Of a stretch of 32,321 nt of DNA, positions 1 through 22,216 are shown piece by piece. How positions within the stretch are numbered: position 1 is the first letter of the stretch; every line of letters starts with the position of its first letter. Under the pieces are notes generated by a model. That model made no database searches, was not told the DNA's origin, and worked only from the letters and a program-made list of their open reading frames with translations. Source of the DNA: a virus; IMG/VR virus record IMGVR_UViG_3300032223_000580, positions 1-32,321 of that record. One strand, given 5' to 3'. The translations under genes and the position numbers were made by a program.

Positions 1-2400
1 AGCCAAAACAACACCAAGTTCTTCTGGGATAACACCAACAACCGTTTGGGCATCAATACTGGTACGCCGCAGACGCAGTTGACGATTGTTTCCAATACTC
101 AGACAACAACGCCCACTGGAACGCTTCCTGCTGGCACTGACATTTATATCGTTGGCGCAAATGCGGCCAACACCCGTATCACGCAGGATGCTTATGGCAC
201 TGGCGCTTATGGCGTATATACAGCCCGTTCTGCGCGTGGTACGGCGGCTTCTCCGACTGCTAGTCAGGCGAACGATGTTCTTGCTCAATTCACTGCGCGT
301 GGCTATGGCACGACAGGTTTTGGCACGGCATCAACTGGTTATCTTGCAATCAGTGCTGCTGAGAACTTTACAGATACGGCGCAGGGAACTTATGCGTCTA
401 TCTATACAACAGCTACAGGCGGAAACTCAGCAACTGAAGCTTTTCGTTTTGGTTCTGCTGGTCAACTTGGCATTGGCGGCGCAACATACGGCACCAGCGG
501 CTACGTCCTGACATCGGGCGGCGCATCTGCCGCGCCAACATGGTCACAGGTCAGCGCCACTTCATTGTCTGGCGTCTTGCCTGTTGCGAACGGCGGAACG
601 AACATTTCGTCATACACTATTGGCGACATCATCTACGCTTCCGGCACAACCACGCTGTCCAAACTGGCTGACATCGCCACTGGCAACGTCCTGCTTTCGG
701 GCGGTGTCGGTGTTGCCCCGTCCTACGGCAAAGTTGGTCTGACCACGCATGTGTCCGGCACCCTTCCGATTGCTAATGGCGGCACGAATCTCACATCGAC
801 GCCGACTGATGGTCAGCTTCTGATCGGCAGTACGTCTGGTGCGGGTTATTCGCTGGCAACTCTGACCGCTGGCACGGCCATCGGCATCACCAACGGTGCT
901 GGTGCGATCACGATCAACAACACTGGTGTGACCAGCTTGACTGCTGGCACGGCCATCAGCGTCTCCGCATCTACTGGCGGCGTGACTGTCACCAACACTG
1001 GTGTCACCAGCATCGTTGCTGGCACAAACATCAGCATTTCTGGTGGCACGGGCGCTGTTACCGTCAACACATCCAGCAGCCCCACATTTAGCGGCGGCAT
1101 CACCGATGGCGGCAACCTGACCTTCACGGGTACAGGGGCGCGTATTCTTGGTGACTTCAGCAACGCAACAGTCACTAACCGTCTTGCTTTCCAAACAAGC
1201 ACGACAAATGGTTCGACTGGTATTTATGCCCTGCCAAACGGCACATCGACTGCGGCTTCGTGGCAAGCAACAAATGCTGTTGATCCGACAAACTGCGCCA
1301 AAGTTCTGATTGCTACCAACGGCAGCACAGATGTGCAGCTTGTTTCTGGCATCAATGGTACAGGAACTTATTTGCCCCTTTCGTTCTTTACGAATGGCTC
1401 TGGTCAGTTTGCGATCAACACTTCTGGTGCCTTTGGCATTGGTTCTGTCGCAGCATCCACTGTCAATTACGGCACATCGGGACAGGCATTCATCTCTGGC
1501 GGCTCTTCCGCACAGCCATCGTGGGGAACTCTTGGTGTTGCGGGGGGCGGCACGGGCCTTACCAGTTATACGATTGGCGATTTGCTCTATGCCTCTGGCA
1601 CGACGACAATTGCCAAACTGGCTGACGTTGCCACTGGCTCCGTCCTTGTTTCGGGTGGCGTTGGTGCTGCTCCGTCTTATTCGGCAACTCCGACAGTTAC
1701 GTCGATCACTGTTCCGACAGTTAAAAGTGCATCCACTCTGACATTCCAGACGAATGGCACGACAACTGCCATGACGATTGATGCGTCTCAAAACGTGGGG
1801 ATCGGCACCGCTTCTCCGGGAACAAAGTTGAATGTCTATACTGCTTCGGCAACCAACACGCTGATCCGCGCCCAAAATACAGCAGGTTATATTGATTTTG
1901 GAGCGTTATCGACTGGTGCTGTTTATGGCGGTTATTCAACTGGCGGCAGTTACACCATAGGGACATCTGATGCCAATCCAATCCTTATGTATACTTCAGG
2001 CGCAGAACGTGCCCGCATCTCCTCTACTGGCGGGTTCTCTGTTGGCACGACATCTGATCCGGGTGCTGGCGCTATCTACGCAACTGGCAACATCACGGCT
2101 TATTTCTCTGATGACCGTCTGAAAGTTCGTAAGGGCAACATTGAAAATGCCCTTGCCAAAGTTGAAGCAATCTCTGGCTTCCACTATGAAGCAAACGAAA
2201 CCGCACAGGCTCTTGGCTACAAGGCCAAGCCAGAAGTCGGCGTGTCGGCGCAGGAAGTGCAAGCTATTTTGCCAGAGGTTGTTGTTCCCGCTCCTGTCGA
2301 TGAGCAGTATCTGACGGTTCACTATGATCGTCTTGTGCCTCTGCTGATCGAAGCCGTGAAGGAACTGTCTGCCCGCGTTAAGGAGTTGGAGGCTAAGTAA
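1..2400 (+). CDS. Tail fibre with C-terminal S74 intramolecular chaperone (5' partial)
   Basis: The reading frame is open from the first base (it begins SQNNTKFFWDNTNNRLGI), so the true start lies left of the window and at least 799 codons are present. The body is a low-complexity, Gly/Thr/Ser-rich beta-type fibre with repeated GGTN and GGTG turns. A module of 135 bases occurs at 592-726 and again at 1546-1680. The C-terminus from about 2101 carries the S74 (endosialidase-type) chaperone signature: FSDDRLK with the cleavage serine, then GVSAQEVQ, LPEVV, YDRLVPLLIEAVKEL and a short terminal coiled coil. Proteins of this type trimerise the fibre and then self-cleave before the serine. It probably mediates host attachment. 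The S74 call is strong; the receptor is unknown. Confidence 0.85.
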   Translation, partial: SQNNTKFFWDNTNNRLGINTGTPQTQLTIVSNTQTTTPTGTLPAGTDIYIVGANAANTRITQDAYGTGAYGVYTARSARGTAASPTASQANDVLAQFTARGYGTTGFGTASTGYLAISAAENFTDTAQGTYASIYTTATGGNSATEAFRFGSAGQLGIGGATYGTSGYVLTSGGASAAPTWSQVSATSLSGVLPVANGGTNISSYTIGDIIYASGTTTLSKLADIATGNVLLSGGVGVAPSYGKVGLTTHVSGTLPIANGGTNLTSTPTDGQLLIGSTSGAGYSLATLTAGTAIGITNGAGAITINNTGVTSLTAGTAISVSASTGGVTVTNTGVTSIVAGTNISISGGTGAVTVNTSSSPTFSGGITDGGNLTFTGTGARILGDFSNATVTNRLAFQTSTTNGSTGIYALPNGTSTAASWQATNAVDPTNCAKVLIATNGSTDVQLVSGINGTGTYLPLSFFTNGSGQFAINTSGAFGIGSVAASTVNYGTSGQAFISGGSSAQPSWGTLGVAGGGTGLTSYTIGDLLYASGTTTIAKLADVATGSVLVSGGVGAAPSYSATPTVTSITVPTVKSASTLTFQTNGTTTAMTIDASQNVGIGTASPGTKLNVYTASATNTLIRAQNTAGYIDFGALSTGAVYGGYSTGGSYTIGTSDANPILMYTSGAERARISSTGGFSVGTTSDPGAGAIYATGNITAYFSDDRLKVRKGNIENALAKVEAISGFHYEANETAQALGYKAKPEVGVSAQEVQAILPEVVVPAPVDEQYLTVHYDRLVPLLIEAVKELSARVKELEAK
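592..1680 (+). repeat. Diverged 135-base direct repeat inside the fibre gene
   Basis: Copies at 592-726 and 1546-1680 encode nearly the same fibre module: GGTN/GGTG, SYTIGD, YASGTTT, KLAD.ATG, SGGVG.APSY. Both copies are 135 bases and in frame, which indicates an internal duplication of a fibre-shaft unit. Confidence 0.7.
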
Positions 2401-4226
2401 TGGCTACTTTCCTCCAATCGTCCGGCGCTATTTCGATCAACGACATCAACACTGTCTTTGGTCGCGGGAACAATTTGAACGCCTATCGCGGGACGACTTA
2501 TTATACGTCCTCTGCTGGGCCGTTCACGTTTTCGTCCGGCGCAATCAGCATGAATGCGTTCTATGGCACTGGGCCAGTGGCGAACATTCAATACATTGTG
2601 GCGACTGGCGGCACTGTCACAACCAGCGGAAACTATAAAATCCATACCTTTACTGGGTCTGGAACTTTCACCGTTACGCAAACAGGCCAGTCTGGCTACA
2701 ACACTCTTAGTTATGTTGTTGTCGGTGGCGGTGGTGGAACCACAAATGCGGCGCTTGGTGACTCTGGCGCTGGCGGCGCTGGCGCTGGCGGCTATCAATC
2801 TGGTTCCGGCGCTGCTTCTGTTACAAGTTATTCCATCACAGTGGGTGGCGGTGGTAGCGGCTCTTACAATACCTGTTCTAGTGGCGGCACAAGTTCCGGT
2901 TTTGGCTTGACGTCTAATGGTGGCGCAAGGGGTTCAGGCGTTGGGAGTGGCGCGGCTGGTGCGTATAATGAAATGGGTATCTCTGGCGCTTCTGGCTCTG
3001 GCGGCTATTGGACTGGTGGTTCTGGTGCTGGAACTGCTGGGCAAGGCAATGCTGGCGGTTCTGGAGGTCAGTCAAAGGGGAATAATTCCGGCGGCGGCGG
3101 CGGTGGTGCCAGCGGAATTGGTAGTAATGGTAATGTTGGTTCTGGCGGAAATGGCGGAAGCGGAACTTATTTTATAGGTACAGCTACATACTATTCTGGC
3201 GGCGGTGGTGGCGGCGGCCTTTATGGAACTACTAGTGTGGGTGGAGCTGGTGGTGGTGGTTCTGGTGCTAATGTTGGTTCTGGTATCCAAGCTGTTGCTG
3301 GTACTGCCAACACTGGCGGTGGTGCTGGCGGCGGCGGCAATTACAACAATACAACATATCAAGGCAAAAACGGCGGCTCTGGCGTAGTTGCCGTACGCTA
3401 CATTTACACTGGGACAGTCAATCCACCTCCCAGCGTTGAATATCTCATCGTCGCTGGTGGCGGCGGCGGCGGTGGCGGTGGTGGTGGTGGTGGTGGCGGC
3501 GGTGGCTTGCTCAATTCCACAACATCTATCACTGCCGGAACCTCTTACACAGTTACTGTTGGCGCTGGTGGTGCATCTCCGGGTCAGGGGTCGATTGGCT
3601 CCGATGGCGGCAGTTCATCATTCGCTGGTGTTACGTCAACAGGCGGGGGTGGCGGCGGTTATATTTCCGTTGGCCGCAACGGCGGTTCTGGTGGTGGCGG
3701 CGGCGGTGGGGGTAATCGCGCAGGCGGCACGGGCGTTTCCGGTCAGGGTTATGCTGGTGCTACCAGCGTTAATAGCGGCGGTAGCTCATGTGGCGCGGGC
3801 GGCGGTGGAGCAGGAAGTGTTGGCTCTCCAAACAATTTGAATAGCGGCACCGTTAACGGTGGTGCGGGTGGCACAGGCGTTACCAGCAGCATCAGCGGCA
3901 CAAGTACTGGGTATGCTGGTGGTGGCGGCGGTGGTGGACGAACTGGCGGCACAGGCGGTGCTGGCACACAAGGCGGTGCAACTGGCGGCAGCGGAACCAC
4001 ATTTAGCACTGGTTCGGCTACCGTAAATACGGGCGGTGGCGGTGGCGGCGGTCCAACTCAAACAAACGTGCGCGATTGGCCGGGATCGGCTGGTGCCTCT
4101 GGTATTGTCATTATCCGCTATGCCAATACATATGATGATCCACTTTCTGTTGCTGGCGGTACGTTCACCAACACTGGCGGTTATAAAATCATCAGCTTCA
4201 CTGGCTCTGGCTCTGTGACTTGGTAA
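2400..4226 (+). CDS. Glycine-rich tail tip / adhesin-like protein
   Basis: The 608-aa protein starts at an ATG whose A is the last base of the fibre stop (TAATG), so it is translationally coupled to the fibre. After a short N-terminal segment come two glycine-rich modules. Each opens with a Y-V/I-V-x-GGGGG strand (SYVVVGGGGG, EYLIVAGGGGG) and closes with VVAVRYIYT or IVIIRYANT, flanked by FTGSGTF-type strands. The last stretch, ending FTGSGSVTW, looks like an abbreviated third module. This architecture is common in phage tip proteins whose polyglycine loops may form a receptor-binding brush, as in the T-even gp38 type. That role is inferred. Codons are strongly biased to GGN. Confidence 0.65.
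   Translation: MATFLQSSGAISINDINTVFGRGNNLNAYRGTTYYTSSAGPFTFSSGAISMNAFYGTGPVANIQYIVATGGTVTTSGNYKIHTFTGSGTFTVTQTGQSGYNTLSYVVVGGGGGTTNAALGDSGAGGAGAGGYQSGSGAASVTSYSITVGGGGSGSYNTCSSGGTSSGFGLTSNGGARGSGVGSGAAGAYNEMGISGASGSGGYWTGGSGAGTAGQGNAGGSGGQSKGNNSGGGGGGASGIGSNGNVGSGGNGGSGTYFIGTATYYSGGGGGGGLYGTTSVGGAGGGGSGANVGSGIQAVAGTANTGGGAGGGGNYNNTTYQGKNGGSGVVAVRYIYTGTVNPPPSVEYLIVAGGGGGGGGGGGGGGGGGLLNSTTSITAGTSYTVTVGAGGASPGQGSIGSDGGSSSFAGVTSTGGGGGGYISVGRNGGSGGGGGGGGNRAGGTGVSGQGYAGATSVNSGGSSCGAGGGGAGSVGSPNNLNSGTVNGGAGGTGVTSSISGTSTGYAGGGGGGGRTGGTGGAGTQGGATGGSGTTFSTGSATVNTGGGGGGGPTQTNVRDWPGSAGASGIVIIRYANTYDDPLSVAGGTFTNTGGYKIISFTGSGSVTW
3456..3506 (+). repeat. (GGN)17 polyglycine run
   Basis: Fifty-one consecutive bases encode 17 glycines with only GGT and GGC codons. 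It is a triplet-type low-complexity tract whose length could vary without changing the frame. Confidence 0.9.
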
Positions 4227-4236
4227 GGAAAAACAA

Positions 4237-4623
4237 ATGGCTCACTTCGCTCAATTAGATGAAAATGATCATGTCATTCAAGTGATCGTTGTGAACAACA
4301 GCGACTGTGGAGATTTGTCGTTTCCTGACAGTGAACTTGTTGGCGTTGTTTTCTGCCAATCTATTTTTGGCACTGATACCAAGTGGGTTCAAACAAGCTA
4401 TAACCACAATTTTCGCCGTCAATATGCTGCTATCGGTGGCTCATACTCTGCTGCCCTTGATGTCTTTATTGATCCGCAACCGTTCCCATCATGGACACTG
4501 AATGAGTTTGATGGCCTGTGGGAAGCCCCTGTTCAAAAGCCAGAAGTTCCTTTGAACCACATTGCTGTGTGGGATGAAGCTAATCTGGAATGGGACATTG
4601 TTCTGGATGTGGCTGCGGTATGA
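4237..4623 (+). CDS. Conserved small phage protein of unknown function
   Basis: The 128-aa protein begins MAHFAQLDENDHVIQVIVVNN and has an AAGGA ribosome-binding site ten bases upstream. The pattern of an N-terminal FAQLDEN..V..VIVV, a central W.QTSYN..FR..YA.IG..Y and a C-terminal PFPSWTLNE....W.AP is one I recognise from many marine and freshwater phages, usually beside tail genes. No catalytic motif is visible. Its place directly after two tail proteins suggests a virion-associated or tail-assembly role, which is inference. Confidence 0.6.
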   Translation: MAHFAQLDENDHVIQVIVVNNSDCGDLSFPDSELVGVVFCQSIFGTDTKWVQTSYNHNFRRQYAAIGGSYSAALDVFIDPQPFPSWTLNEFDGLWEAPVQKPEVPLNHIAVWDEANLEWDIVLDVAAV

Positions 4624-5411
4624 AGACATTTGTCTCACTTTCCGGTGGAATGGACTCCACCTACCTTCTTTGGAAGCTCTTGTCCGAAACAACGGATGAG
4701 ATCACTGCGCTTTATGTTGATCTGAGCGGCGTTGACCAATTGACGCGCCAGAAATACGACATCCGCAGCTTTGCGTTTGAAGAAGATGGTGAAGCAACCC
4801 GTGTCAAAATTGATGCAATCACTGCGTGGCTAAAGGCCAATTTGCGTGACTTCAATCTGATTGTTGAGCCGATCAGCACGAACTACATGGTTCGGGGCGT
4901 TGGCTCTCCCAATAATCCTCCCGCCTACATTACCCGCTATGCCATTCAACACATCAATGACGGGATATATGATCGCCTTTGCATGTCGAATGAATGGGAA
5001 AATGACGGCGCTGCAAATGGTGGAACGGTGACAACCCGCCGCAATGGCGCGTGGGTTGCCCATGAAATCTTTGTCGCAGAAGCACAACGTGGCCGCATCG
5101 ACTTCACGCTTTTGGATACGGATTACAATCAGGCTTATGCGTTGAACGAAATGCCCGCAGAGCTTCGCTCTATTGTTTGGCCACGTCCTGATCTGAGCGT
5201 AAAGTCCAAGAAGCGCATGTACTTCCGAAAGCTGCTTCTGGAAGGAAAAACACCGCAAGAGATTGGTGCGGAAGCAAAAGCCAAATGCACATTGCCAAAT
5301 GGCAAATGGCACAGCATGAAGTTTTGGGTGTCAGGTAAAGAGCCGACAGATGCCACAACATGGGACATGCCGACATGGCCTTCCTCTTACGAAGTGCCGT
5401 CATCTGGCTAG
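4620..5411 (+). CDS. PP-loop ATP pyrophosphatase (QueC-like N-type, divergent)
   Basis: The 263-aa protein starts at the ATG inside ATGA, overlapping the stop of the previous gene, so the two are coupled. Residues 7-12 (SGGMDS) are the PP-loop that binds ATP and adenylates a substrate, as in QueC, GuaA, ThiI and asparagine synthetase. The following YLLWKL and the strand ALYVDL fit the same fold. Only two cysteines are seen in the downstream part, so the four-cysteine zinc site of true QueC is missing. It is therefore a PP-loop enzyme with unknown substrate. The C-terminus (KWHSMKFWVSG) may bind the substrate or a partner. Its stop overlaps the start of the secreted protein gene that follows. 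Confidence 0.6.
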   Translation: MKTFVSLSGGMDSTYLLWKLLSETTDEITALYVDLSGVDQLTRQKYDIRSFAFEEDGEATRVKIDAITAWLKANLRDFNLIVEPISTNYMVRGVGSPNNPPAYITRYAIQHINDGIYDRLCMSNEWENDGAANGGTVTTRRNGAWVAHEIFVAEAQRGRIDFTLLDTDYNQAYALNEMPAELRSIVWPRPDLSVKSKKRMYFRKLLLEGKTPQEIGAEAKAKCTLPNGKWHSMKFWVSGKEPTDATTWDMPTWPSSYEVPSSG

Positions 5412-6331
5412 GCTTAACTGCTGGCGCGGCGGCTGAAGAACTAAAGATCATCGTCCACACGGTCAGCGGTGGGCATATGATCCATGCGCGTGTCTTTGCT
5501 CAACACTTGCAAAAGTATTCGGGCCAGCCCGTCACGATCAAAGCTGTTCCGGGTGCCGCTGGCATCACTGCTGCCAATTACCTTTACAACGTAGCACCAA
5601 AGGACGGCACAGAGATTGGCACCATTGATAGCCGTGTCCCCGTTCAGTTCCTAGCCAAAGGCGAAGGCGTCAAATACGACATCAGCAAGTTTGGCTGGCT
5701 TGGCTCTGCGGTTGATGGGCGGCGTGAGCCATTTGTGTTCTGGGCGAAAGCCGGATCAGACCCGCTGGTGGCTGGCACAGAAGGTGGCTCATCTATAAAC
5801 CACGTCCGGCTTTTGAATAGCGTCCTGCGCTGGGACATGAAAGAAGTGGTTGGCTACACTGACAGCGCACAAGCAAAACTGGCTTTTGAGCGCGGTGAGA
5901 TCAATCTGGTTGCCTACAACCTGACTGGCATCCGCACGACTAGCCCAGCTTGGCTGACTGACACAACGGTCCTGCCATTGATCCAATACGGCAACGGACG
6001 CTACCGCCATAAGAACCTTCCGTTTGTTACAACGGCTATGGAATTGGCAGCGAGTGAGGATGACCGGAAATTGGTTGAGGCATTTGAGCGGCTGCTCATT
6101 TTGGTTCGTCCTTTTGCGGCTCCTCCCGGCGTTCCAGAGCTTCGCCTTGCCTATCTTCGCACCTTGTTTGAGCGAACTGTTACAGACCCAGAATATCAGG
6201 CTGATGCTGTCAAAATAGGGGTCGTTCCGTCCCCGCTCTCTTGGAATGAGACCCAAGAAATAGTAAGATCAATGGCATCGACGGACCCCAAAATTGTCCG
6301 GCGAATTTCTGAGTTCCAAAGGGGAAGCTAA
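5375..6331 (+). CDS. TctC/Bug-like periplasmic solute-binding protein
   Basis: The 318-aa protein starts at the ATG giving MAFLLRSAVIWLGLTAGAAA, a clear Sec signal peptide with an Ala-rich cleavage site before EELKIIVHT. An ATG 15 bases upstream would add MGHAD and fits a signal peptide less well. Family features of the tripartite tricarboxylate receptors are present: SGGHMIHARVFAQHL, the ligand-loop-like VPGAAGITAANYLYNVAPKDGTEIG, FGWLGS, and a C-terminal lobe with FAAPPGVPELRLAYLRTLF and DPEYQ. Such proteins bind small carboxylates in the periplasm and deliver them to TctAB. No TctA or TctB is in the window. It overlaps the PP-loop gene by 37 bases. This is rare cargo for a phage; the ligand cannot be assigned. 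Confidence 0.75.
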   Translation: MAFLLRSAVIWLGLTAGAAAEELKIIVHTVSGGHMIHARVFAQHLQKYSGQPVTIKAVPGAAGITAANYLYNVAPKDGTEIGTIDSRVPVQFLAKGEGVKYDISKFGWLGSAVDGRREPFVFWAKAGSDPLVAGTEGGSSINHVRLLNSVLRWDMKEVVGYTDSAQAKLAFERGEINLVAYNLTGIRTTSPAWLTDTTVLPLIQYGNGRYRHKNLPFVTTAMELAASEDDRKLVEAFERLLILVRPFAAPPGVPELRLAYLRTLFERTVTDPEYQADAVKIGVVPSPLSWNETQEIVRSMASTDPKIVRRISEFQRGS

Positions 6332-6516
6332 TGGAAAATCTGCCAATTACGATCAAGTTGACACTGGCTCAGTGGAATCTGGTTCTGAACGCTTTGGGCC
6401 AGCGCCCATTCGCAGAGGTGAACGAAATCATCACTGCCATTAAGGTGCAGGGCGAACAGATTGTGGCTGAAGCCAAAGACGCTATTGATGGCACGGAACC
6501 TGAAGGCGCTGCATAA
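6331..6516 (+). CDS. Small hypothetical protein
   Basis: The 61-aa product is coupled to the preceding gene by TAATG, with a GGGGA ribosome-binding site. It is acidic and mainly helical by composition (MENLPITIKLTLAQWNLVLNAL at the start, Glu/Ala-rich at the end), with no signal peptide or membrane segment. I do not recognise a domain, although small proteins with this LTLAQWN.VL..L..RP start are frequent in phage tail and lysis regions. It sits just before the membrane proteins of the lysis block. Confidence 0.55.
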   Translation: MENLPITIKLTLAQWNLVLNALGQRPFAEVNEIITAIKVQGEQIVAEAKDAIDGTEPEGAA

Positions 6517-6518
6517 TT

Positions 6519-6740
6519 ATGGACAACCAGCAACTCTTCAATGTGGTCGTTTCTATCGCTGGGTTCCTTGCGGTGTTCGTGTTTAATACCACGACCCGGA
6601 AGCTCCAAAAGATGGAAGACCGCATTGCGGAGTTGCCCAAAGAATACGTTGCCAAAGACGATTACCGATCTGACATCGGTGAGATCAAAGCGATCTTGAA
6701 GCAAATTTTTGAAAAGCTCGACAATAAGGCTGACAAATAA
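6519..6740 (+). CDS. Small single-span membrane protein, holin candidate
   Basis: The 73-aa protein has a hydrophobic stretch at about residues 6-23 (LFNVVVSIAGFLAVFVF) followed by a charged, helical and probably coiled-coil tail with the phage-typical ELPKEYVAKDDYRSDIGEIK. Similar proteins lie in lysis cassettes and are often annotated as holin or holin-associated. Genomic position, two genes before the endolysin, supports this, but a one-span topology does not prove holin activity. Confidence 0.5.
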   Translation: MDNQQLFNVVVSIAGFLAVFVFNTTTRKLQKMEDRIAELPKEYVAKDDYRSDIGEIKAILKQIFEKLDNKADK

Positions 6741-7213
6741 TGGACCCCGCCACCATCTCACTCATCTTTGGTGGCGCTAAAATGGCCTACGAGGCCATCA
6801 AAAGTGGCATCAGTGTTGGCAAGGAACTTCAGGGCATGGCTTCTGATGTTGCCAAACTCTACGGCTCCGTAGCAAAGCTGACACAGCTATCTGCCACACC
6901 TCCCAAGCCAAAGTTGTTCTCTGGCGTCTCTGTTGAAGAGATGGCTATGGACATTGTGGTCAAGAGGAAACAAGCCGAAGCTTGGTATCACGAAGTTAAA
7001 AACGCTTTTGTGGCTGAGTATGGTCTGCGCGGCTGGGAAGAAGTCCAGCGCGAGATTGTTCACATCCAGAAGCAGCAAAAGGCTGCTCAAGCCGCAGCTC
7101 AAAAAGAGCATGAAGAATCTATGCACCAGCTAAAAGTATTGGGGATGGCTGGGTTGGTAGTTTTAGTTTTGGTGGTTGGCATGATCATCACCATAAGCCT
7201 GTCAATCAAGTAG
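6740..7213 (+). CDS. Membrane-anchored helical protein in the lysis block
   Basis: The 157-aa protein starts at a TAATG overlap. It has an Ala/Gly-rich N-terminal helix (MDPATISLIFGGAKMAYEAI), a long charged and probably coiled-coil middle (EEVQREIVHIQKQQKAAQAAAQ), and a strong C-terminal membrane segment at about residues 133-154 (LGMAGLVVLVLVVGMIITIS). It could be an accessory lysis protein or a holin regulator. I know of similar unannotated phage proteins but cannot name a function. Confidence 0.5.
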   Translation: MDPATISLIFGGAKMAYEAIKSGISVGKELQGMASDVAKLYGSVAKLTQLSATPPKPKLFSGVSVEEMAMDIVVKRKQAEAWYHEVKNAFVAEYGLRGWEEVQREIVHIQKQQKAAQAAAQKEHEESMHQLKVLGMAGLVVLVLVVGMIITISLSIK

Positions 7214-7223
7214 GAGAACCCCA

Positions 7224-7955
7224 ATGCACATGTCACAAGGGGGGTTAGACAACCTCCTCAAGAAGTTTGAAGGCTGCAAACTTAAAGCTTATCGCTGCCC
7301 GGCTGGCATTCTGACCATTGGCTATGGCCATACGTCTGCTGCTGGCGCTCCAGAGGTTCACGATGGCATGACCATCACGCAGGACGAAGCCGAGACAATT
7401 CTTAAGAACGATCTGGTCAAATATGAGCGCCCAGTTGCATCATTGGTCAAAGTTGATCTTGAACAGAACCAGTTCGATGTGCTGGTGGACTTTGCTTACA
7501 ATGCTGGTGTGGGAAACCTGAAGACATCTGGCCTTCTCAAGAAGGTTAATGCGGGTGACTTTGATGCCGTACCAGATGAGCTGATGAAGTGGACAAAGGG
7601 CGGTGGAAAAGTGCTGCCGGGTCTGGTTCGCCGCCGTCAGGCCGAAAGCGCATGGTGGAATGCCCATCAGGACCACCCGCATGACCATCAGGACCACCGT
7701 TCTGATCCTGATCCTGTTCCGGCCCCATCTATGGTTGACAGCAAGCAGGGCAACGCGGCTCTTGTCACAGGAGGTCTTGGCACTCTTGGTGCGGCTAAAG
7801 AAGTGGCGGCACAGGCTCAAGACGCTTCAGATACGGTCGATCAGATCATGGGATTGCTGCACAACACCAATTTTTTGATCATGGTCATTATCATCGGACT
7901 TGGTGCAGCTATCTGGTTCTGGCGCAAACAGCATATGGAGGCTCATGGTGTTTAG
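7224..7955 (+). CDS. Endolysin, GH24 lysozyme with C-terminal membrane segment
   Basis: The 243-aa enzyme has an AGGAGA site seven bases before the chosen ATG. The phage lysozyme triad is visible as E16-x8-C25-x5-T31 (FEGCKLKAYRCPAGILTIGYGHT region), in the arrangement of T4/P22-type muramidases with Cys in place of Asp. NQFDVLVDFAYNAGVG and LVRRRQAESAWW complete the GH24 fold by about residue 150. A His/Asp/Pro-rich linker and an Ala-rich segment follow, then a membrane span at about residues 216-233 (NFLIMVIIIGLGAAIWFW) with a basic end. Tail-anchoring is unusual for a holin-released lysozyme. The gene overlaps the spanin gene by 11 bases. Confidence 0.85.
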   Translation: MHMSQGGLDNLLKKFEGCKLKAYRCPAGILTIGYGHTSAAGAPEVHDGMTITQDEAETILKNDLVKYERPVASLVKVDLEQNQFDVLVDFAYNAGVGNLKTSGLLKKVNAGDFDAVPDELMKWTKGGGKVLPGLVRRRQAESAWWNAHQDHPHDHQDHRSDPDPVPAPSMVDSKQGNAALVTGGLGTLGAAKEVAAQAQDASDTVDQIMGLLHNTNFLIMVIIIGLGAAIWFWRKQHMEAHGV

Positions 7956-8178
7956 CCTTCTTTTCACTCCGATTGGCCGTTATGCGGTTATTGCAGTGGC
8001 CGTCCTGATCATTCTGGGCGGCATCTATTTCAAAATCCGGGCGGATGCAGTGGCCGAAATTGAGGCTGCCGCCACTGCCGATGTTCTTCGGAGGACTGAA
8101 AATGCGGTTCGGGCTGGTGATTCTCTCAAGCTTTCTCCTGACAGGCTGCGCGACCCTGACAGCAACGAAAGAGACTAA
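7945..8178 (+). CDS. Rz-like inner-membrane spanin
   Basis: The 77-aa protein starts within the end of the endolysin gene. It has an N-terminal membrane anchor (about residues 9-26, GRYAVIAVAVLIILGGIY), then a charged periplasmic helix (DAVAEIEAAATADVLRRTENAV) and a hydrophilic end rich in Arg and Asp. This is the topology of lambda Rz, which joins an outer-membrane lipoprotein to disrupt the outer membrane at lysis. Identification rests on topology, position after a lysozyme and the overlapping lipoprotein gene, not on sequence similarity. Confidence 0.7.
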   Translation: MVFSLLFTPIGRYAVIAVAVLIILGGIYFKIRADAVAEIEAAATADVLRRTENAVRAGDSLKLSPDRLRDPDSNERD

Positions 8179-8296
8179 CGGCGCTGTTTGTGATGTTTGG
8201 CAGGATATAACTTGGTCTAAGAAGGACACTGACCAAACCATTACCGAGGTAAAGGTCAATAATGCTCGGCGCGAAGGATGGTGCAAAGGGCGTTAA
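8102..8296 (+). CDS. Rz1-like outer-membrane lipoprotein spanin
   Basis: The 64-aa product starts at the ATG giving MRFGLVILSSFLLTGC. That is a lipoprotein signal with lipobox LTGC, the cysteine being residue 16. The start lies within the Rz-like gene in another frame and the two overlap by 77 bases, the classic overlapping Rz/Rz1 arrangement. An upstream in-frame TTG or ATG would spoil the signal peptide. The mature part contains C.VWQDITWSKKDTDQTI..V..NN..R..WC, a pattern seen in small phage lysis lipoproteins. It probably sits in the outer membrane and binds the Rz partner. Confidence 0.7.
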   Translation: MRFGLVILSSFLLTGCATLTATKETNGAVCDVWQDITWSKKDTDQTITEVKVNNARREGWCKGR

Positions 8297-8299
8297 AAA

Positions 8300-8308
8300 T
8301 GCTATAAC
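8300..8308 (+). promoter_or_regulatory. Possible extended -10 promoter before the virion block
   Basis: TGC-TATAAC in the 35-base gap between the spanin and adaptor genes matches an extended -10 element (TGnTATAAT, five of six). No good -35 is seen. It would give a short leader before the GGAG site at 8320-8323 of the adaptor gene. Confidence 0.3.
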
Positions 8309-8331
8309 AAGGGGATAGCGGAGCTTCTGAA

Positions 8332-9081
8332 ATGACCACCGGACTTTCATATAATGGCACGGTATCTGGCACCACAAGCTATGTGGCCCAGATTTCGACG
8401 ATGGCGGTTGTTGAGCCGACTGATCCGGCATTTCAGATTGTTCTTCCCCAGATGATTACCTATGCCGAGAATCGCATGTATCGCGATCTCGACTTCCTGT
8501 TCACATCAGGGTCTACGACTGCTTACAGCCTAAGTGTAGGTAGCCGGGTATTGAATGTTCAGGCTGATACGTTCCCCTATGGAACCCTTGTAGTCCCAGA
8601 ACAAATCAACGTCATCACCCCCGCAGGGACTTCAAACCCAGATAACGGAACTAGAAACCCGCTTCTCCCTACGACAAAGGAGTTTCTAGATCAGGTTTAT
8701 GGCTCATCCTCATATCAGGATATCCCAAAGTATTGGGTGCCGTTCGATGACTACACCTTCTTAGTTGGCCCATATCCTGACGCAAGTTATACGGTTGAGC
8801 TTGTCGGAACATATCGACCTGCCAGTTTGTCAGCTTCAAACCCGACAACGTTCATTAGCCTTAATTTGCCTGACCTCTTTATCATGGCTTCGATGGTCTA
8901 TGTGAGTGCTTACCAGCGCAACTTTGGCCGTCAAAATGATGATCCTCAAATGGCTCAGAGCTATGAAGGCCAGTATCAAACGCTTTTGAAGGGCGCTGCG
9001 GTCGAAGAAGCCAGAAAGAAATTCGAGGCTGCTGGTTGGTCGTCTCAATCTCCATCTACCTTCGCTACTCCGACACGGTGA
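8332..9081 (+). CDS. Head-tail adaptor-like structural protein
   Basis: The 249-aa protein has a GGAG site eight bases before its ATG. Its helical N-terminus (FQIVLPQMITYAENRMYRDLDF), beta-rich middle and C-terminal four-helix pattern (LNLPDLFIMASMVYVSAYQRNFG, DDPQMAQSYEGQYQTLLKGAAVEEARKKF) match the adaptor proteins of podoviruses such as the SU10 type, which sit between portal and nozzle. The next gene is nozzle-like, which supports the call. Assigned from family knowledge and context; a structure search would settle it. Confidence 0.6.
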   Translation: MTTGLSYNGTVSGTTSYVAQISTMAVVEPTDPAFQIVLPQMITYAENRMYRDLDFLFTSGSTTAYSLSVGSRVLNVQADTFPYGTLVVPEQINVITPAGTSNPDNGTRNPLLPTTKEFLDQVYGSSSYQDIPKYWVPFDDYTFLVGPYPDASYTVELVGTYRPASLSASNPTTFISLNLPDLFIMASMVYVSAYQRNFGRQNDDPQMAQSYEGQYQTLLKGAAVEEARKKFEAAGWSSQSPSTFATPTR

Positions 9082-9087
9082 TAGTCG

Positions 9088-11631
9088 ATGCCTCATGCTT
9101 CATTCAAACTTGTTCCGGGCGTTGACCAGAACAAGACACCTGCGCTCAATGAGGCTGCTATCTCCTATAGCCAGCTTGTGCGGTTTATTTCGGATCGCAC
9201 CCTCGGCGGTCTAATCCAGAAACTTGGCGGTTGGACAAAATATTTTGGCAATAGCATTGGATCAAAAGTTCGTTGCCTTTGGGGTTGGGAAGATACAAAC
9301 GCAAATGCCTACCTTGGCGTTGGCGCAGATGGGATTGCTCCAGCAACTGTTTCTGGTGCTTCTGGAACAGGTTCTGTTGTTACACTTACCCTTTCAACTC
9401 CGTTCAAATTTACGGTTGGAAATTCCATAACAGTTAGTGGAATAATTCCGACAGACTATAATGGATCGTATGTTGTAACTGCATCAACTCTCAATAGTGT
9501 TTCGTATGCAGGTACAGCAACCGCTTCATATGTTTCTGGGGGAACTGTAGCTGGCGGTGGCGGCTCTTTGCTGGTCATCAAAAATTCTACAAAAACATCT
9601 CAAGACATCACTCCACAAACAATATTGCGAAACACAAGTGTGAAGTTTCAAACAACACTTGGGAGCAATCAAGTAACCGTTACAGATATTGGTAGTAACA
9701 CTGACAATTATGATTCGGTGTATATCAAAACTCAGGTAGCTGTTGGGGGCATCGTCCTTTCTGGATTGTATCAAATCTACAATCCCGGAGCGAGTGCGGA
9801 TACTTATTCCATCTATGCCACAGACCTTACGGGTAATCCTGATAATGCTTTGTTCTCAACTGTAGCGTCTCCAATTAACGTTACTGGTGCATCTGGCACG
9901 GGAACATATGCGACTATTAACTTTTCAACATCCTATACGTTTCCAGTTGGCAGCATTGTCAATATCACCGGGATCAATCCATCTGGCTACAATGGCAACT
10001 ATGTCGTTTATTCATCGACATCGACCAGTGTCACATTCTTAAGCACGACAACAACGGCATATGTTTCGGGTGGTTCCATCAATAACTATGGTGATGTTCC
10101 GCTTTACACCGCTACTGCTGGTAGTGACTTCGTGAATGTGACTTTGCCAAATCATAACTTGGATATTGGCCTGTCGTTCCCTGTTCTTGTATCGACCACA
10201 ATTGGTGACACAGGGATTACTTTGTTTGGGAATTACATCGTCACTGATGTTGTTTCGAGCAGCGTGTTTACAATTTCAGCTTCAACATCTGCTGCGGCAG
10301 GATCGACTGTTCTGAAAGCTTATGAGAATGGCGGTCAGGTTCAATTTCTGTATTATAACGGTCTTGGTCCTATCCCGCAGGGAACTGGTTACGGCATCAA
10401 TGCCTATGGTGTTGGCGGATACGGCACTGGTACGGCTCCTACAGCCAATACTGGAACTGCTATTAACGCGATTGATTGGACTCTTGATAACTGGGGCGAA
10501 ACGCTGATCGCATGTCCTCTTAATGGACCCATTTATCAATGGAACCCGACAAGCGGTAACGTCATTGCGCTTGTCATTCCAGAAGCGCCGCCGATCAATT
10601 CAGGCATGTTTGTTGCTATGCCGCAGCGGCAAATCATTACATGGGGATCGACATACACTGGCGTTCAAGACCCGATGCAGGTGCGTTGGTGCGATGTCGA
10701 TAATTATAATTCTTGGATTTCGCAAATTGGCAATCAAGCTGGTGGCTATCGTATCCCTAAAGGATCACGCATCGTTCAAGGAATCCAAGCTGGTCAACAA
10801 GGTCTGCTTTGGACTGATCTTGGCCTCTGGGCCATGCAATACGTTGGGTTGCCATATGTTTACCAATTCAACGAACTTGGTACAGGTTGCGGCTTGATTG
10901 GCAGAAAAGCTGCTGGCTCAATGGCTGGCACTGTTTATTGGATGGGACAAAGCCAATTCTATAAACTTTCTGGGAATGGTGTTGAGCCAATTCGCTGCCC
11001 AATCTGGGATGTTATCTTCCAAGACATTGATCCAAATGCGCTTGATCGTATTCGCTTTGGCGCTAATTCGCGATTTGGTGAAATTCGCTGGGACTTCCCA
11101 ACAAAAGCGAATGGTGGCGAAGTTAGTCATTACGTCAAATATAATGTCTGGCTCGACCAATGGGATTTTGGCGCAAATAGTACCGAAAATCCGTATGTTT
11201 CCCGCACGGCATGGACCAATGAATCTGTCCTTGGTCCGCCAATCGGTGCTGGAACAAATAACTATATTTATCAGCACGAAACATCGACTGATGCTGATGG
11301 AACGCCGATGTATTCATCGTTCCAGACAGGTTATTTTGTTCTGAATGATGCAGATGTAAAAACGTTTATTGATCAAGTTTGGCCTGATATGAAATGGGGC
11401 TATTATGATGGCAATCAAACGGCTAACATAAAGCTCACATTCTATACGGCTGACTATCCCGGTCAGACACCGAATGCGTATGGTCCGTATACCTTGACCC
11501 AAGCCACAACTTATGTGACCCCACGTTTTAGGGGTCGTTTGGTTTCCATTAAAATTGAAAGCCAAGATATCGGGTCATTTTGGAGACTTGGTAACATGCG
11601 CTATCGATTCCAAATTGACGGGAAATACTAA
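9088..11631 (+). CDS. Nozzle / DNA-stabilisation-like tail protein with duplicated beta insert
   Basis: This large 847-aa beta-rich protein follows the adaptor gene directly. Residues 1-80 contain the N-terminal start of the fold, ending in a WGWED motif. Two related inserts (9346-9549 and 9877-10080) share the pattern TGASGTG....F.T.Y.F.VG....ITGI.P..YNG.YVV and look like surface decoration domains. The C-terminal 350 residues have Trp/Gly-rich blades (MPQRQIITWGSTYTGVQDP, GLLWTDLGLWAMQYVG, GTVYWMGQSQFYKLSG) and end FWRLGNMRYRFQIDGKY. This resembles the beta-propeller of P22 gp10 and SU10-type nozzle proteins, which close the tail after packaging. Exact orthology is uncertain. Confidence 0.6.
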   Translation: MPHASFKLVPGVDQNKTPALNEAAISYSQLVRFISDRTLGGLIQKLGGWTKYFGNSIGSKVRCLWGWEDTNANAYLGVGADGIAPATVSGASGTGSVVTLTLSTPFKFTVGNSITVSGIIPTDYNGSYVVTASTLNSVSYAGTATASYVSGGTVAGGGGSLLVIKNSTKTSQDITPQTILRNTSVKFQTTLGSNQVTVTDIGSNTDNYDSVYIKTQVAVGGIVLSGLYQIYNPGASADTYSIYATDLTGNPDNALFSTVASPINVTGASGTGTYATINFSTSYTFPVGSIVNITGINPSGYNGNYVVYSSTSTSVTFLSTTTTAYVSGGSINNYGDVPLYTATAGSDFVNVTLPNHNLDIGLSFPVLVSTTIGDTGITLFGNYIVTDVVSSSVFTISASTSAAAGSTVLKAYENGGQVQFLYYNGLGPIPQGTGYGINAYGVGGYGTGTAPTANTGTAINAIDWTLDNWGETLIACPLNGPIYQWNPTSGNVIALVIPEAPPINSGMFVAMPQRQIITWGSTYTGVQDPMQVRWCDVDNYNSWISQIGNQAGGYRIPKGSRIVQGIQAGQQGLLWTDLGLWAMQYVGLPYVYQFNELGTGCGLIGRKAAGSMAGTVYWMGQSQFYKLSGNGVEPIRCPIWDVIFQDIDPNALDRIRFGANSRFGEIRWDFPTKANGGEVSHYVKYNVWLDQWDFGANSTENPYVSRTAWTNESVLGPPIGAGTNNYIYQHETSTDADGTPMYSSFQTGYFVLNDADVKTFIDQVWPDMKWGYYDGNQTANIKLTFYTADYPGQTPNAYGPYTLTQATTYVTPRFRGRLVSIKIESQDIGSFWRLGNMRYRFQIDGKY
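9346..10080 (+). repeat. Two diverged 204-base direct repeats in the nozzle-like gene
   Basis: The copies lie at 9346-9549 and 9877-10080. Both are 204 bases, in frame, and end in a YVSGG turn. They encode a domain of about 68 residues with alternating beta strands, plausibly an Ig-like or similar decoration fold that was duplicated. Confidence 0.75.
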
Positions 11632-12588: not shown

Positions 12589-13074
12589 ATGTCCGAAGAA
12601 ATTGAAATTCGAATTGGTACGCCTGAAGACCTCGACGCAGTGATGGAAATTGCGGTCGATATGTGGGACGAGTTGGGCATTGTTCCGGCCTCTGTCCAAA
12701 AGATTTTGGGAGAGGTTTGGGAAGCCCTCCACCAACAGAATGGTTTGATTGGGATTATTGGGCAGCCAGATGGCCGAATTGAGGGGGGTGTCCTACTCAG
12801 GATCGGTTCTATGTGGTATAGTGATGAGCGGGTTCTGGAAGAGCGTGGTATCTTTATCCATCGCGATTTCAGGTCTTCAAAAGGTGGAAGGGCTAGGCGT
12901 CTTTGCGAGTTCTCAAAAGACACTGCCGATGCTCTAGGTATCCCGCTGGTTATTGGGGTTCTCTCTAATGACCGAACGGAAGCTAAGGCCCGTTTGTATG
13001 AGCGGCAATTTGGGAAACCCAGTGGGGCGTTTTTCCTTTACGGCGGAACAACCGGGTCTATGAGGGATCAATAA
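12589..13074 (+). CDS. GNAT-type N-acetyltransferase-like protein
   Basis: The 161-aa protein has an AGGGGA site before the ATG. The first strand and helix (IEIRIGTPEDLDAVMEIAVDMW), a central strand turn (RIEGGVLLRIG) and the acetyl-CoA loop and helix around residues 95-107 (RSSKGGRARRLCEF) match the GNAT fold. The later GIPLVIGVL strand and the RLYERQFG helix also fit. The acceptor is unknown. It lies between virion genes, so it may modify a host or virion protein, or have been recruited as a structural piece. The fold call is fairly secure; activity is inferred. Confidence 0.6.
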   Translation: MSEEIEIRIGTPEDLDAVMEIAVDMWDELGIVPASVQKILGEVWEALHQQNGLIGIIGQPDGRIEGGVLLRIGSMWYSDERVLEERGIFIHRDFRSSKGGRARRLCEFSKDTADALGIPLVIGVLSNDRTEAKARLYERQFGKPSGAFFLYGGTTGSMRDQ

Positions 13075-13075
13075 T

Positions 13076-16000
13076 ATGTGCGGCGGAACATCAACCACTA
13101 CGCAATCAGTATCCATCCCGCCAGAGGTTCTGGCTCGGTATAATGCTGTCAATGCTCGTGCTGAGAATGTCGCCAACACCCCTTTCCAACCATATACAGG
13201 CCAGTTCGTAGCTGGCCTGACTCCTACTCAACAGGCTGGTATTGCCGGAACTTCGGCAGCTGCCAATGCAGCGCAGCCCTATTATCAGGCAGCAACAGGC
13301 TTGACCCTTTCGGGGGCGCAGGATGTTGGCCCTCTGACACAGGGCCAGATTGCCTATTACCAGAACCCTTTCACGCAGTCCGTTGTTGACCCCACCCTCA
13401 AGGCTCTTCAGCAGCAGCAGGGTCAGGAACGCTCTCAGCTGGCATCGACCGCTATTCGTTCTGGTGCATATGGCGGCGACCGTGCTGGCCTTGAACGCGC
13501 TAATTTGGCTCGTCAGCAGACCCTAGGCACGTCTCAGGCTATCTCGCCTTTGTTTGCCCAAAGTTATCAGTCGGCTGTGAATACCGCACAGGGCCAACAG
13601 GGCGTTGTGGCGCAAGATTTGGCTCGTCGTATGCAAGCCGGACAGGCGGTTGCTGGCCTTGGTACGGGCGCTCAACAGGCAGCTCTTCAAGGTGCGGCAG
13701 CCCAGCTTCAGGCTGGTACAGCAGAGCAGCAGACCCAACAGGCTGACCTTACGGCCCGTTATCAGCAGTTCCTTCAGGAGCGTGGCTATCCGTTCCAAGT
13801 GGCTCAGTTCCTCGCTAATATCGCGATGGGAACGGGCGCTTTGTCTGGTTCTACTACGACCACTCAACAGCCGTCTTCGTTCTTCTCTGACCGTCGTCTC
13901 AAGCACGATGTGAAGCAGATTGGTAAGACCAATGATGGGCTGCCGATCTATAGCTTCAAGTATAACGGCGACGATAAGACCCAGATCGGTCTTATGGCGC
14001 AGGACGTTGAGAAGAAGAAGCCACAAGCAGTTGGCCTCGCGGCTGGCTATAAGACTGTTGATTACGACAAGGCCACAGAAGGCTCTGAGCGTAAGGGCAA
14101 GTGGTCTGGCGGCGGCCTTGATCCGAACTCGATGGGCGGCGCTGTCACCCCTGATATGCAGGGCGAGGCTTTTGCCCGTGGTGGCTACGCTACTGGCGGT
14201 ATTGGCCTTGGCGGCGGTCTGCTCGATAGCACAGATTTAGGTTCTATCCTTGCTATGCAAAAACAGGCTCTTGGCCCATTTGCTCAGGCAGGTCTTTATA
14301 GCGGCTCGGCTCAACAGAACCCAATGGGCGGGAAAAGTATTGTTCCGGCAGCTACGCTTCCAGTTGCAAGAATGATTACGGCTGGTTCAACTCCAAAAGC
14401 CCCACAAAGCGGCCTCAGCAATGTTCTTCAGGGTGCCGACACGGCTGATAAGCTTGGAAAAGCATGGGATGTTGGCGAAAAAGGCATTAATAAGCTTCGC
14501 GATTGGACGAAATCTTCGCCCGGAGATAACCTTACACCTACCCCAGATGATATGAAAAATATTCCGCTCCCTGTTCCTCGTCCTGAAGGAATGGCTCGTG
14601 GCGGTTTTGCTGCTGGTGGCAATGATGATGAAAGCCTACCCGGCGTTGGCAGCGATACAATGCCCGGTGGCGGTGACGACGTTCTTGAAGGTGTGGTTAA
14701 GGCTGGCCAGCAAAAAACTCAAAACCTTCCAAAGCCGGGCGACGCTCCAAAGCCTTCTCAGGGACTTGGCGGCGATCTGAAAGACATCGCGGGTCTTATC
14801 GGTGCAGGTAAAACATTGGCCAGCGCAGGTTCTGCTGCGATGGAATATCTGCCAATGATCCTTGCTCCTCTTGGCCTTAATGCAGGTGGCGTTGCCTCTC
14901 GTAAGGGATATGCGGGTAAGGACGGCGAAAGCGGCGCTGTAATCGATGATTCGGCACCTTCTGGCCCATCTGATGAAGATGTCGATTACCTTGCTCGTAC
15001 CATGCTTCGTGAAGCTGGTGGCGAAGGTGAGCGTGGCATGACGGCTGTTGGCCATGTTGTCCGCAATCGTCTTCAGTCAGGAGATTACGGGGATAATGTT
15101 AAGAGCATCGTCACAGCTCCAAAACAATTTACTCCTTGGAACCCTGATCTGGCAGGGACAAAGGCTGACCCACGCCTGATCGACACAGAAACGCCCGGTT
15201 ATAAGACAGCAGCGGCTCTCGCCCGTGGCGTTCTTAATAATGAACTTGAAGACCCGACGGGTGGCGCAACGCATTTTGCCAATGTCAAAACCGTTTTGGC
15301 AGATCGCGCAAAGCAGGGCCTTGGTCTTCAGGACTGGCTCTCAAATATGTTGAAGTCACCTGACGTTGTTCAGATCGGCGGCCATACATTTGGCAAGGCT
15401 GATGCTAGCCGTGCAATGGCTTATACAGATCAGGGACAGGCACGTTCTGCGGCATCTGATGCGATTGACCGCAGCACAAGTGGGCAGCCATCTGGTGGTG
15501 TTGCTGGACCTGTGTATGCATCTAAGTTAGCCGAATATCTGCCTTCGAGGCCTGTCGTGCGTGATGGAAAACAGGTGGAAGAGGTCGATCTCAAGCGTAC
15601 ATTGATCCCGCTTTTGACGGGTCTCGGCGCTATGGGTGCTTCGCCTAGCCGATACTTTGGTGGAGCATTGCTGCAAGGTCTTGGAGCTGGCGCTCAGTCT
15701 TACGCGAACCTTGAGAAGCAGCAGCAGGACATCGAAGAAAGCAAAGCCCGTGAACAACAGGGTCTTGCATCTGCAGCTGAGATTATTAATCGCGCCCACC
15801 GCGATACTCCTGCTGGGTATACGTTGGTCGGGTTTGATCGTGTCACCAAGATGCCGATCTATGTTCCGATGGATCGCCTTATCCAATATGGTAAGACAAC
15901 GCCTGATGTCGTTACCCGCCGTCCGGGTGATACGACACGCATTGCCCCACCCGCTAAGATTGAAGGCACCCCGCTGGCTCCTCCAGAGGCTCCAAAAGCT

Positions 16001-20847: not shown

Positions 20848-21536
20848 TGCTTCCGGGAACGTTTAATAATCTTCTTCTTGGCGGGGCTGTCGTTCCCGGC
20901 TCTCAGACGTATTCAACCGCTGGAACTTATTCATTTAAAGTTCCTGCATATAATAAAATCACATTCACCCTTTGGGGTGGTGGTGCGGCGGGTGGCTGGG
21001 GATATGGCGCTGGCCAAAATGGCAACAATACGACTGTCAGTTTTTCTGGATCGTCTTTAGTTGCTGGTGGCGGTACAGGTGGTTATTCAGGATACTATCG
21101 GCGCGGCATCGGCGCGGGTGGACCCGGTGGAACTGCAAGCGGCGGCAATGTAACAAATATAAACGGTGGTGATGGCATCGCCGGATATGTTTACACCAAC
21201 TCAACAAGTTCATGGGCCAATGGCGGTGCGTCTCCAAATGGTGGCGCTGGTGGCAATGGTAATACGCAAAGAGCGCCGGGACCATGGAATGGATCACCCG
21301 GATTTGCACCCGGTGGTGGTGGTGGTGGTGGTTATTCGGAAGATACTTCTGGTAGTAGCCACAACTGGCAAGGCGGTGGTGGCGGTGGAGCCGGAGCTTA
21401 TGTTGTTTCAACTTACACGTCAGCAACTGGGCCAACGCAAGGTTCAACTATTTCTATCACGGTTGGTGATGGAGGAGCTGGCGCAGGAAATGGCGCTTCA
21501 GGCGCAGCAGGTCAAATTATTGTTGCTTGGGCTTAA
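20847..21536 (+). CDS. Glycine-rich tail tip protein
   Basis: The 229-aa protein starts at the ATG overlapping the stop of the fibre-like gene (TAATG); an earlier in-frame start inside that gene is less likely. It has an N-terminal attachment segment ([20 protein letters not shown]), one strand YNKITFTLWGGGAAGGWG and a single polyglycine domain ending in STISITVGDGGAGAG and QIIVAWA. It resembles one module of the 608-aa glycine-rich protein at 2400-4226. A role as a receptor-binding tip is likely. The stop codon TAA overlaps the stop of the opposite-strand oxygenase gene in a shared TTAA. Confidence 0.6.
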   Translation: MLPGTFNNLLLGGAVVPGSQTYSTAGTYSFKVPAYNKITFTLWGGGAAGGWGYGAGQNGNNTTVSFSGSSLVAGGGTGGYSGYYRRGIGAGGPGGTASGGNVTNINGGDGIAGYVYTNSTSSWANGGASPNGGAGGNGNTQRAPGPWNGSPGFAPGGGGGGGYSEDTSGSSHNWQGGGGGGAGAYVVSTYTSATGPTQGSTISITVGDGGAGAGNGASGAAGQIIVAWA

Positions 21537-22216
21537 CCAAAGGTTCTCCAATTACGCTTTGGTTGAAGCCCAAGAGCTTTAGATGACTTCTCTTTGTATG
21601 TTATGACAATATCTCCTGCCAAAGAGATGCGATGTGTCTTAACGTCATCCATTGTTTTTATCCCCGGATCACGCATTGTGGTTTTTCCAAGCGTGTCATG
21701 GTTCATGCGAGATGGGAACAAATACATGGTCCCTTCTGAAGCAGGAAATGACCACGCATAAGAGTTGAAGACATTCCATTCAGCCGGATTATTAAATCTG
21801 ACAAAACCCGGAAACGGCTCATATTTATCGTTAGCGGCATAGAACTGAATTGGCTGGGCGCAATCAGTTGGCACGTTGATATAATAGACAAACGACAAGT
21901 GAGCATCGCCATGCCCATGAAACGGTGTCGATCTGTCTTTGATGATGTTGAACCATGACTTGACGATGTTGAAGTCAAAGTTGGACGGGTCCACTTGCAT
22001 CACTTCGCAATATTGCTTTGCTACGCTCGTTGCCATATCGAAGATAGGCGTAAACATGGGATCATGATGCAGCGTGACATGGCCTGTGCTTTCATCTGAA
22101 TAACCATCGCTATCCAAATGGTTCATGAGGGCGTTCATCGCGACCAATTTTGTATGGTCATGATCTGAATTAACTTCTTCTAAAAACAGCGTTGGAAATA
22201 GAGCGTGAATTTGCAT
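21533..22216 (-). CDS. 2-oxoglutarate/Fe(II)-dependent oxygenase-like protein
   Basis: The 227-aa protein fits the family of 2OG-Fe(II) oxygenases seen in phages of aquatic bacteria. An HxD pair is visible in FHGHGDAHLSFVYYINVP; a later histidine in PSRMNHDTLGK, then HRISLAGDIVITY, supply the distal His and the Arg that holds 2-oxoglutarate. It is the last gene of the minus-strand operon, 11 bases after the GcrA-like gene, and converges on the tip protein. The substrate is unknown; hydroxylation of protein or nucleic acid is possible. The fold call is good, activity inferred. Confidence 0.65.
   Translation of the reverse strand: MQIHALFPTLFLEEVNSDHDHTKLVAMNALMNHLDSDGYSDESTGHVTLHHDPMFTPIFDMATSVAKQYCEVMQVDPSNFDFNIVKSWFNIIKDRSTPFHGHGDAHLSFVYYINVPTDCAQPIQFYAANDKYEPFPGFVRFNNPAEWNVFNSYAWSFPASEGTMYLFPSRMNHDTLGKTTMRDPGIKTMDDVKTHRISLAGDIVITYKEKSSKALGLQPKRNWRTFG

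Follow-up and report, generated by a model that had tools for sequence, protein, structure and literature searches.

A TctC/Bug-like solute-binding protein with an altered ligand loop in a phage-specific clade

The virus record IMGVR_UViG_3300032223_000580 of IMG/VR (32,321 nt; the window hereafter, taken at full length) encodes a TctC/Bug-like solute-binding protein (P0001) that bears an export signal and belongs to a clade of phage proteins with a changed ligand-binding site. We propose that the exported protein would pass a single ligand, common to these phages, to an uptake system of the host and thereby aid the phage; we put the probability of this reading, in which ligand, partner and benefit are all conjectural, at about 0.5. 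A first-pass annotation of the DNA had called the product a secreted TctC/Bug-like protein carried by a phage, and profile, fold, synteny and signal-peptide evidence agree with that call.

Family, fold and export signal

Pfam model PF03401, which the first-pass annotation had suggested as a check, scores the window protein at 18.5 bits (E = 0.0016, residues 38-82 only), below the cut-off of 27 bits; it matches 20 of 39 members of the family alignment at E ≤ 0.01. PHROGs and NCBIfam give no match for the window binding protein. The Pfam check thus fell short, and the family identity that it was meant to establish comes from a family profile and from the fold. The profile, built from the viral family and three bacterial rows, matches TphC across residues 18-313 (E = 9e-12) and also TBP and BugD. 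P0001 alone as a query finds a terephthalate-binding protein and aligns with bacterial proteins over residues 28-313 at no more than 38% identity (E up to 1e-40). One bacterial relative, in L010, is encoded directly 5' of tctA.

An AF2 model computed from a 39-sequence alignment (pLDDT 90, pTM 0.85) replaced a poor first model from six sequences (pLDDT 52). In the PDB, its 17 best hits without exception belong to the tripartite tricarboxylate (TTT) binding proteins, with E values down to 1e-14, and include TphC, TBP, Bug27, MatC, AdpC and BugD, the last of which had been proposed for just this comparison. The predicted structure is clearly a TTT (TctC/Bug)-type two-domain periplasmic-binding fold, despite the sub-threshold Pfam score.

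The N-terminus (MAFLLRSAVIWLGLTAGAAA, followed by EE) has a hydrophobic core and then an AxA site, an export signal recognized by inspection and hydrophobicity; the mature protein would begin with EELKIIV. The leaders of the viral homologues are very divergent in sequence, yet nearly all are still hydrophobic with an AxA-like site, and the retention of these features argues that export is under selection. The reading frame has a second in-frame start, an ATG at 5360. The overlap with the upstream PP-loop gene measures 37 nt, or 52 nt from that ATG.

The setting between tail and lysis genes described earlier is borne out: tail-fibre genes lie upstream, and three small ORFs and then a lysozyme gene follow downstream (Table 1). 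The absence of TctA and TctB also stands for the window record, and it extends to 16 related records for TctA and to nine for TctB. The virion genes of the window specify SU10-type adaptor, stabilization-type and ejection-type proteins; Erf, an exonuclease, RusA and a helicase are encoded as well. The window's structural proteins are similar to proteins of aquatic phages, alphaproteobacterial ones among them, which makes an alphaproteobacterial host plausible. The middle part of the ejection-type protein (13076-16906, 1276 aa) also matches a family of phage endolysins, phrog_15649. Within the structural block lies an acetyltransferase-like gene (12589-13074), found at the same position in MW202675.1 (L046, L047), a phage filed under Myoviridae whose gene content is podovirus-like with a P22-type stabilization protein.

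Table 1. Coordinates of the binding-protein gene, its sequence elements and associated genes in the window
Feature	Position	Strand	Details
Tail-fibre protein with S74 chaperone domain	46..2400	+	
Glycine-rich protein, tail-module neighbour	2400..4226	+	PF21722
phrog_7759 protein, MAHFAxLD family, same module	4237..4623	+	E 2e-38; recurs upstream of PP-loop gene
QueC-like PP-loop ATPase-family gene (SGGMDS)	4590..5411	+	phrog_1550 E 2e-7; weak Pfam QueC/ATP_bind_3
TctC/Bug-like periplasmic solute-binding protein gene (P0001)	5375..6331	+	318 aa; ORF, profile, fold, homologues
Predicted signal peptide	5375..5434	+	residues 1-20, cleavage after AAA (AxA site); from sequence
Ligand ('pincer') loop	5456..5485	+	residues 28-37, HTVSGGHMIH; motif per PMC5812351
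Conserved block VPGAAGITAANYLYNVAPKDG	5546..5608	+	residues 58-78; inside Pfam TctC local match
Viral-clade signature D114-G-R116...W123	5714..5743	+	near inter-domain hinge (position inferred from TphC alignment)
Phage lysozyme (endolysin)	7224..7955	+	PF00959 E 3e-48
2OG-Fe(II) oxygenase	21533..22216	-	phrog_81, PF13759, cluster c10

Phage origin, selection and accessory status

The search of related phages for conserved synteny, another check proposed at the outset, was positive. Independent IMG/VR contigs (L002, L003, L004, L005) carry relatives with 94, 91, 79 and 73% identity in an unchanged gene order. In all, about 40 viral contigs carry relatives and represent podovirus-like and T4-like phages. 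The T4-like contigs, assigned from the terminase and the gp13-gp18 order and checked against Sinorhizobium phage phiM12, include ones of 107, 155 and 168 kb. The PP-loop gene (L088) and the binding-protein gene (L006) lie at opposite ends of the 58-kb podovirus-like contig IMGVR_UViG_3300032245_000439, which probably represents a near-complete, circularly permuted genome. A tblastn search of the cultured phages in INPHARED, with two members of the family as queries, gave no match to the binding protein, and the PP-loop gene had none in the same collection.

A tree that included 20 bacterial relatives puts 42 of the 44 viral proteins in a single clade (SH-aLRT 99), although bacterial sampling was limited to about 800 genomes and a single pattern scan across 84,980 species and bacteria may have a nearer relative. 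With long branches removed, the 41 viral rows that remain all fall on one side of a branch (support 98). The two viral proteins outside the clade (L025, L045) may be separate acquisitions.

Host DNA joined to the phage by an assembly error, or a host gene captured recently, would offer another account of the locus. The weak Pfam match points that way and nothing else does, whereas the order shared by the independent contigs, the phage-only clade with its support of 98-99, the ceiling of 38% on identity to any bacterial gene found and a GC content similar to that of the neighbouring genes all speak against it, and we give it next to no chance. Contamination and chimeric assembly in particular are ruled out by the syntenic contigs together with the phage-only clade. 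The binding-protein gene is genuine phage DNA.

The protein is under strong purifying selection: dN/dS of its mature part lies between 0.05 and 0.10 for the window lineage and between 0.04 and 0.11 for T4-like pairs. In the leader region dS is low, at least partly because the leader overlaps the PP-loop gene. L070, at 64% by PP-loop the closest PP-loop relative without the binding-protein gene, has the module otherwise in place; the corresponding slot of the related complete phage MW202675.1 lacks the gene; and the gene occurs in none of 38 contigs that encode a relative of the window lysozyme and extend 3 kb or more upstream of it, 11 of which also carry the adaptor and stabilization genes. 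A slot that is filled or empty among related phages marks the gene as optional cargo. It lies inside phage genomes, is dispensable to the lineage and evolves under purifying selection, as expected of an auxiliary metabolic gene, which would also alter host metabolism during infection.

The altered binding site

In TTT binding proteins, a PFxAGGxxD loop after β1 and a second loop hold two water molecules that bind the proximal carboxylate of the ligand (PMC5812351, PMC8556258). The first-pass annotation had taken VPGAAGITAANYLYNVAPKDG for the ligand loop; this stretch is in fact a conserved block after β2, present in viral and bacterial relatives alike, and the true loop comprises residues 28-37. 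There the window protein retains only GG, and P, F and D of the motif are gone. The signature Asp is present in 20 of 20 bacterial relatives vs one of 42 viral-clade proteins, and the second-loop glycine in 16 of 20 vs none of 42. L044, the only viral protein with the Asp, branches off first within the viral clade, a position that suggests loss of the residue after entry into phages.

Other positions are nearly fixed in the viruses: D114 (40/42), R116 (37/42), W123 (37/42) and Q204 (42/42). The first three show no conservation among the 20 bacterial relatives. In an alignment to TphC, on which the pocket mapping is based, E136 (31/42, otherwise mostly D or Q) corresponds to pocket residue Q150, and N142 (30/42) to pocket residue S156.

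Loss of the carboxylate-coordinating signature leaves the ligand class, and even binding itself, uncertain, and it weakens the case that the phage protein binds carboxylates in the usual mode. From the conservation patterns we infer a binding function that persisted in the phage proteins with changed chemistry, and the viral clade probably shares one ligand. The new residues are so strongly conserved that work on a single purified member could identify the ligand of the whole family.

Linked genes, possible roles and known counterparts

The PP-loop gene stands beside the binding-protein gene in three phage types: podovirus-like, T4-like and L042/L043-type. The binding-protein gene follows it directly in window-type phages, in L016/L017/L032 and in L042/L043, and the two are adjacent or very close in T4-like L023, L024, L031, L083, L090, L092, L100 and L102. 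The two genes have correlated pairwise distances (Mantel r 0.84), as shared phage ancestry would also produce, and 25 of 44 PP-loop loci show no binding-protein gene, several of them cut by contig ends and with L088 counted as linked via L006. At 15 T4-like loci a 2OG-Fe(II) oxygenase gene lies directly 3' of the binding-protein gene, with an overlap or a 1-nt gap and mostly with a 4-nt overlap, and the window oxygenase falls in the same cluster, c10, as these operonic enzymes. In T4-like phages the binding-protein gene sits in an island upstream of the neck gene gp13; in the cultured Pelagibacter phage Mosig, genes for a 2OG oxygenase and the bilin pathway occupy that location. The near-complete 58-kb record, which has no PF13759 match, rules out a universal oxygenase link. 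Linkage to both partner genes may reflect a shared cargo island alone.

Several loci are unusual in arrangement. Many phages have a member of the QueC-like PP-loop family in a tail-fibre module, frequently with no binding-protein gene alongside (alignment A4); distant members retain a QueC-like Cys cluster, which the window copy has lost. L092 has five PP-loop paralogues around a single TctC-like gene (4707-10400). In L016 (936-4335), L017 and L032, three tandem collar-domain tail-protein paralogues are followed by two genes, one for a glycosyltransferase, and then by the PP-loop and TctC-like genes. L031, L100 and L102 have a PP-loop gene and two 2OG-oxygenase genes between two TctC-like paralogues, the second of which is very divergent.

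The binding protein is probably cargo that alters uptake or sensing in the infected cell. In the reading that we prefer, the host Sec pathway would export it during infection, and the soluble periplasmic protein would capture one small ligand, probably common to these phages. The ligand would be handed to an inner-membrane uptake system of the host, for which the host's own TctAB is the simplest candidate. The phage would gain from greater uptake of a nutrient that limits its production, as proposed for cyanophage PstS, which is not known to come with phage-encoded PstABC.

The linked genes invite a different account, in which an imported substrate or co-substrate, for example a keto or dicarboxylic acid, would serve the phage PP-loop protein and 2OG-Fe(II) oxygenases. 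It would explain the recurrent PP-loop neighbour, the correlated distances, the oxygenase 3' of the gene and the window enzyme of the same cluster; the many phages with the PP-loop gene and no binding protein, the oxygenase-free 58-kb relative and the confounding effect of ancestry on the correlation make it unlikely in our judgement. A little less likely still is its fuller form, a phage-evolved TTT branch with one non-classical ligand that, with the PP-loop and oxygenase proteins, would constitute a phage-run periplasmic route of salvage or modification. The protein might instead use the fold as a scaffold and block entry of a second phage or a periplasmic system of the host, a role that has nothing to do with uptake. 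Accessory genes that are small and lie next to tail and lysis genes often encode such exclusion or decoy factors, the present gene travels with tail-fibre modules, and its classical ligand loop is degenerate. However, exclusion factors are typically small and fast-evolving, at odds with the dN/dS observed here, and the constraint on pocket-aligned residues across very different phages fits a shared ligand better than strain-specific exclusion; we consider this role rather improbable. More doubtful again is a ligand sensor, in which the solute-bound protein would signal through a periplasmic sensor domain of the host and retune host transcription. TctC signalling has a precedent in Bordetella, where BctC works with the BctE kinase, and TTT binding proteins often occur as orphans (PMC5812351), but no regulator is seen adjoining the gene, and its presence in several phage types would require a partner that many hosts share.

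A distinct and old family, confined to phages and represented in podovirus-like and T4-like ones, would mark manipulation of periplasmic solute capture as a recurrent strategy of infection. A search of open-access literature gave no account of this phage-specific clade with an altered ligand loop and only passing mentions of viral tricarboxylate-transport genes. These concern tricarboxylate transport genes that lie near norB/nirK in a viral genomic island (PMC8115048) and a tctA-like match in SUP05 viral contigs (PMC4164917); the passages concerned describe no binding-protein family. Under the names PBP2_Bug_TTT and Bordetella uptake protein, databases list proteins of uncultured Caudovirales (A0A6J5T247 and others) that have the same fold, but at only 14-16% identity. 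Such names, together with the mentions of viral tricarboxylate transport, indicate that the kind is already known.

The phage proteins share fold, length, signal peptide and full-length profile homology with TctC/Bug proteins (TphC, TBP, BugD, BugE, Bug27, MatC, AdpC), as well as the PGAAG and NY..DG blocks. They differ in that PFxAGGxxD is cut to GG, which is itself often lost, in the replaced second-loop glycine, in the new D114, R116, W123 and E136, and in being phage-encoded with no TctA or TctB found. Like the orphan Bug proteins of Bordetella and Rhodoplanes, they have no membrane partner encoded alongside, but those orphans are chromosomal expansions, whereas the phage genes are mostly single and form a separate clade. 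To our knowledge, the main known case of a phage-carried binding protein is cyanophage PstS. That periplasmic phosphate-binding protein is treated as an auxiliary metabolic gene (PMC6359870). The window protein resembles it as a periplasmic binding protein carried by a phage without a transporter of its own, and differs from it in binding-protein family and, presumably, in ligand.
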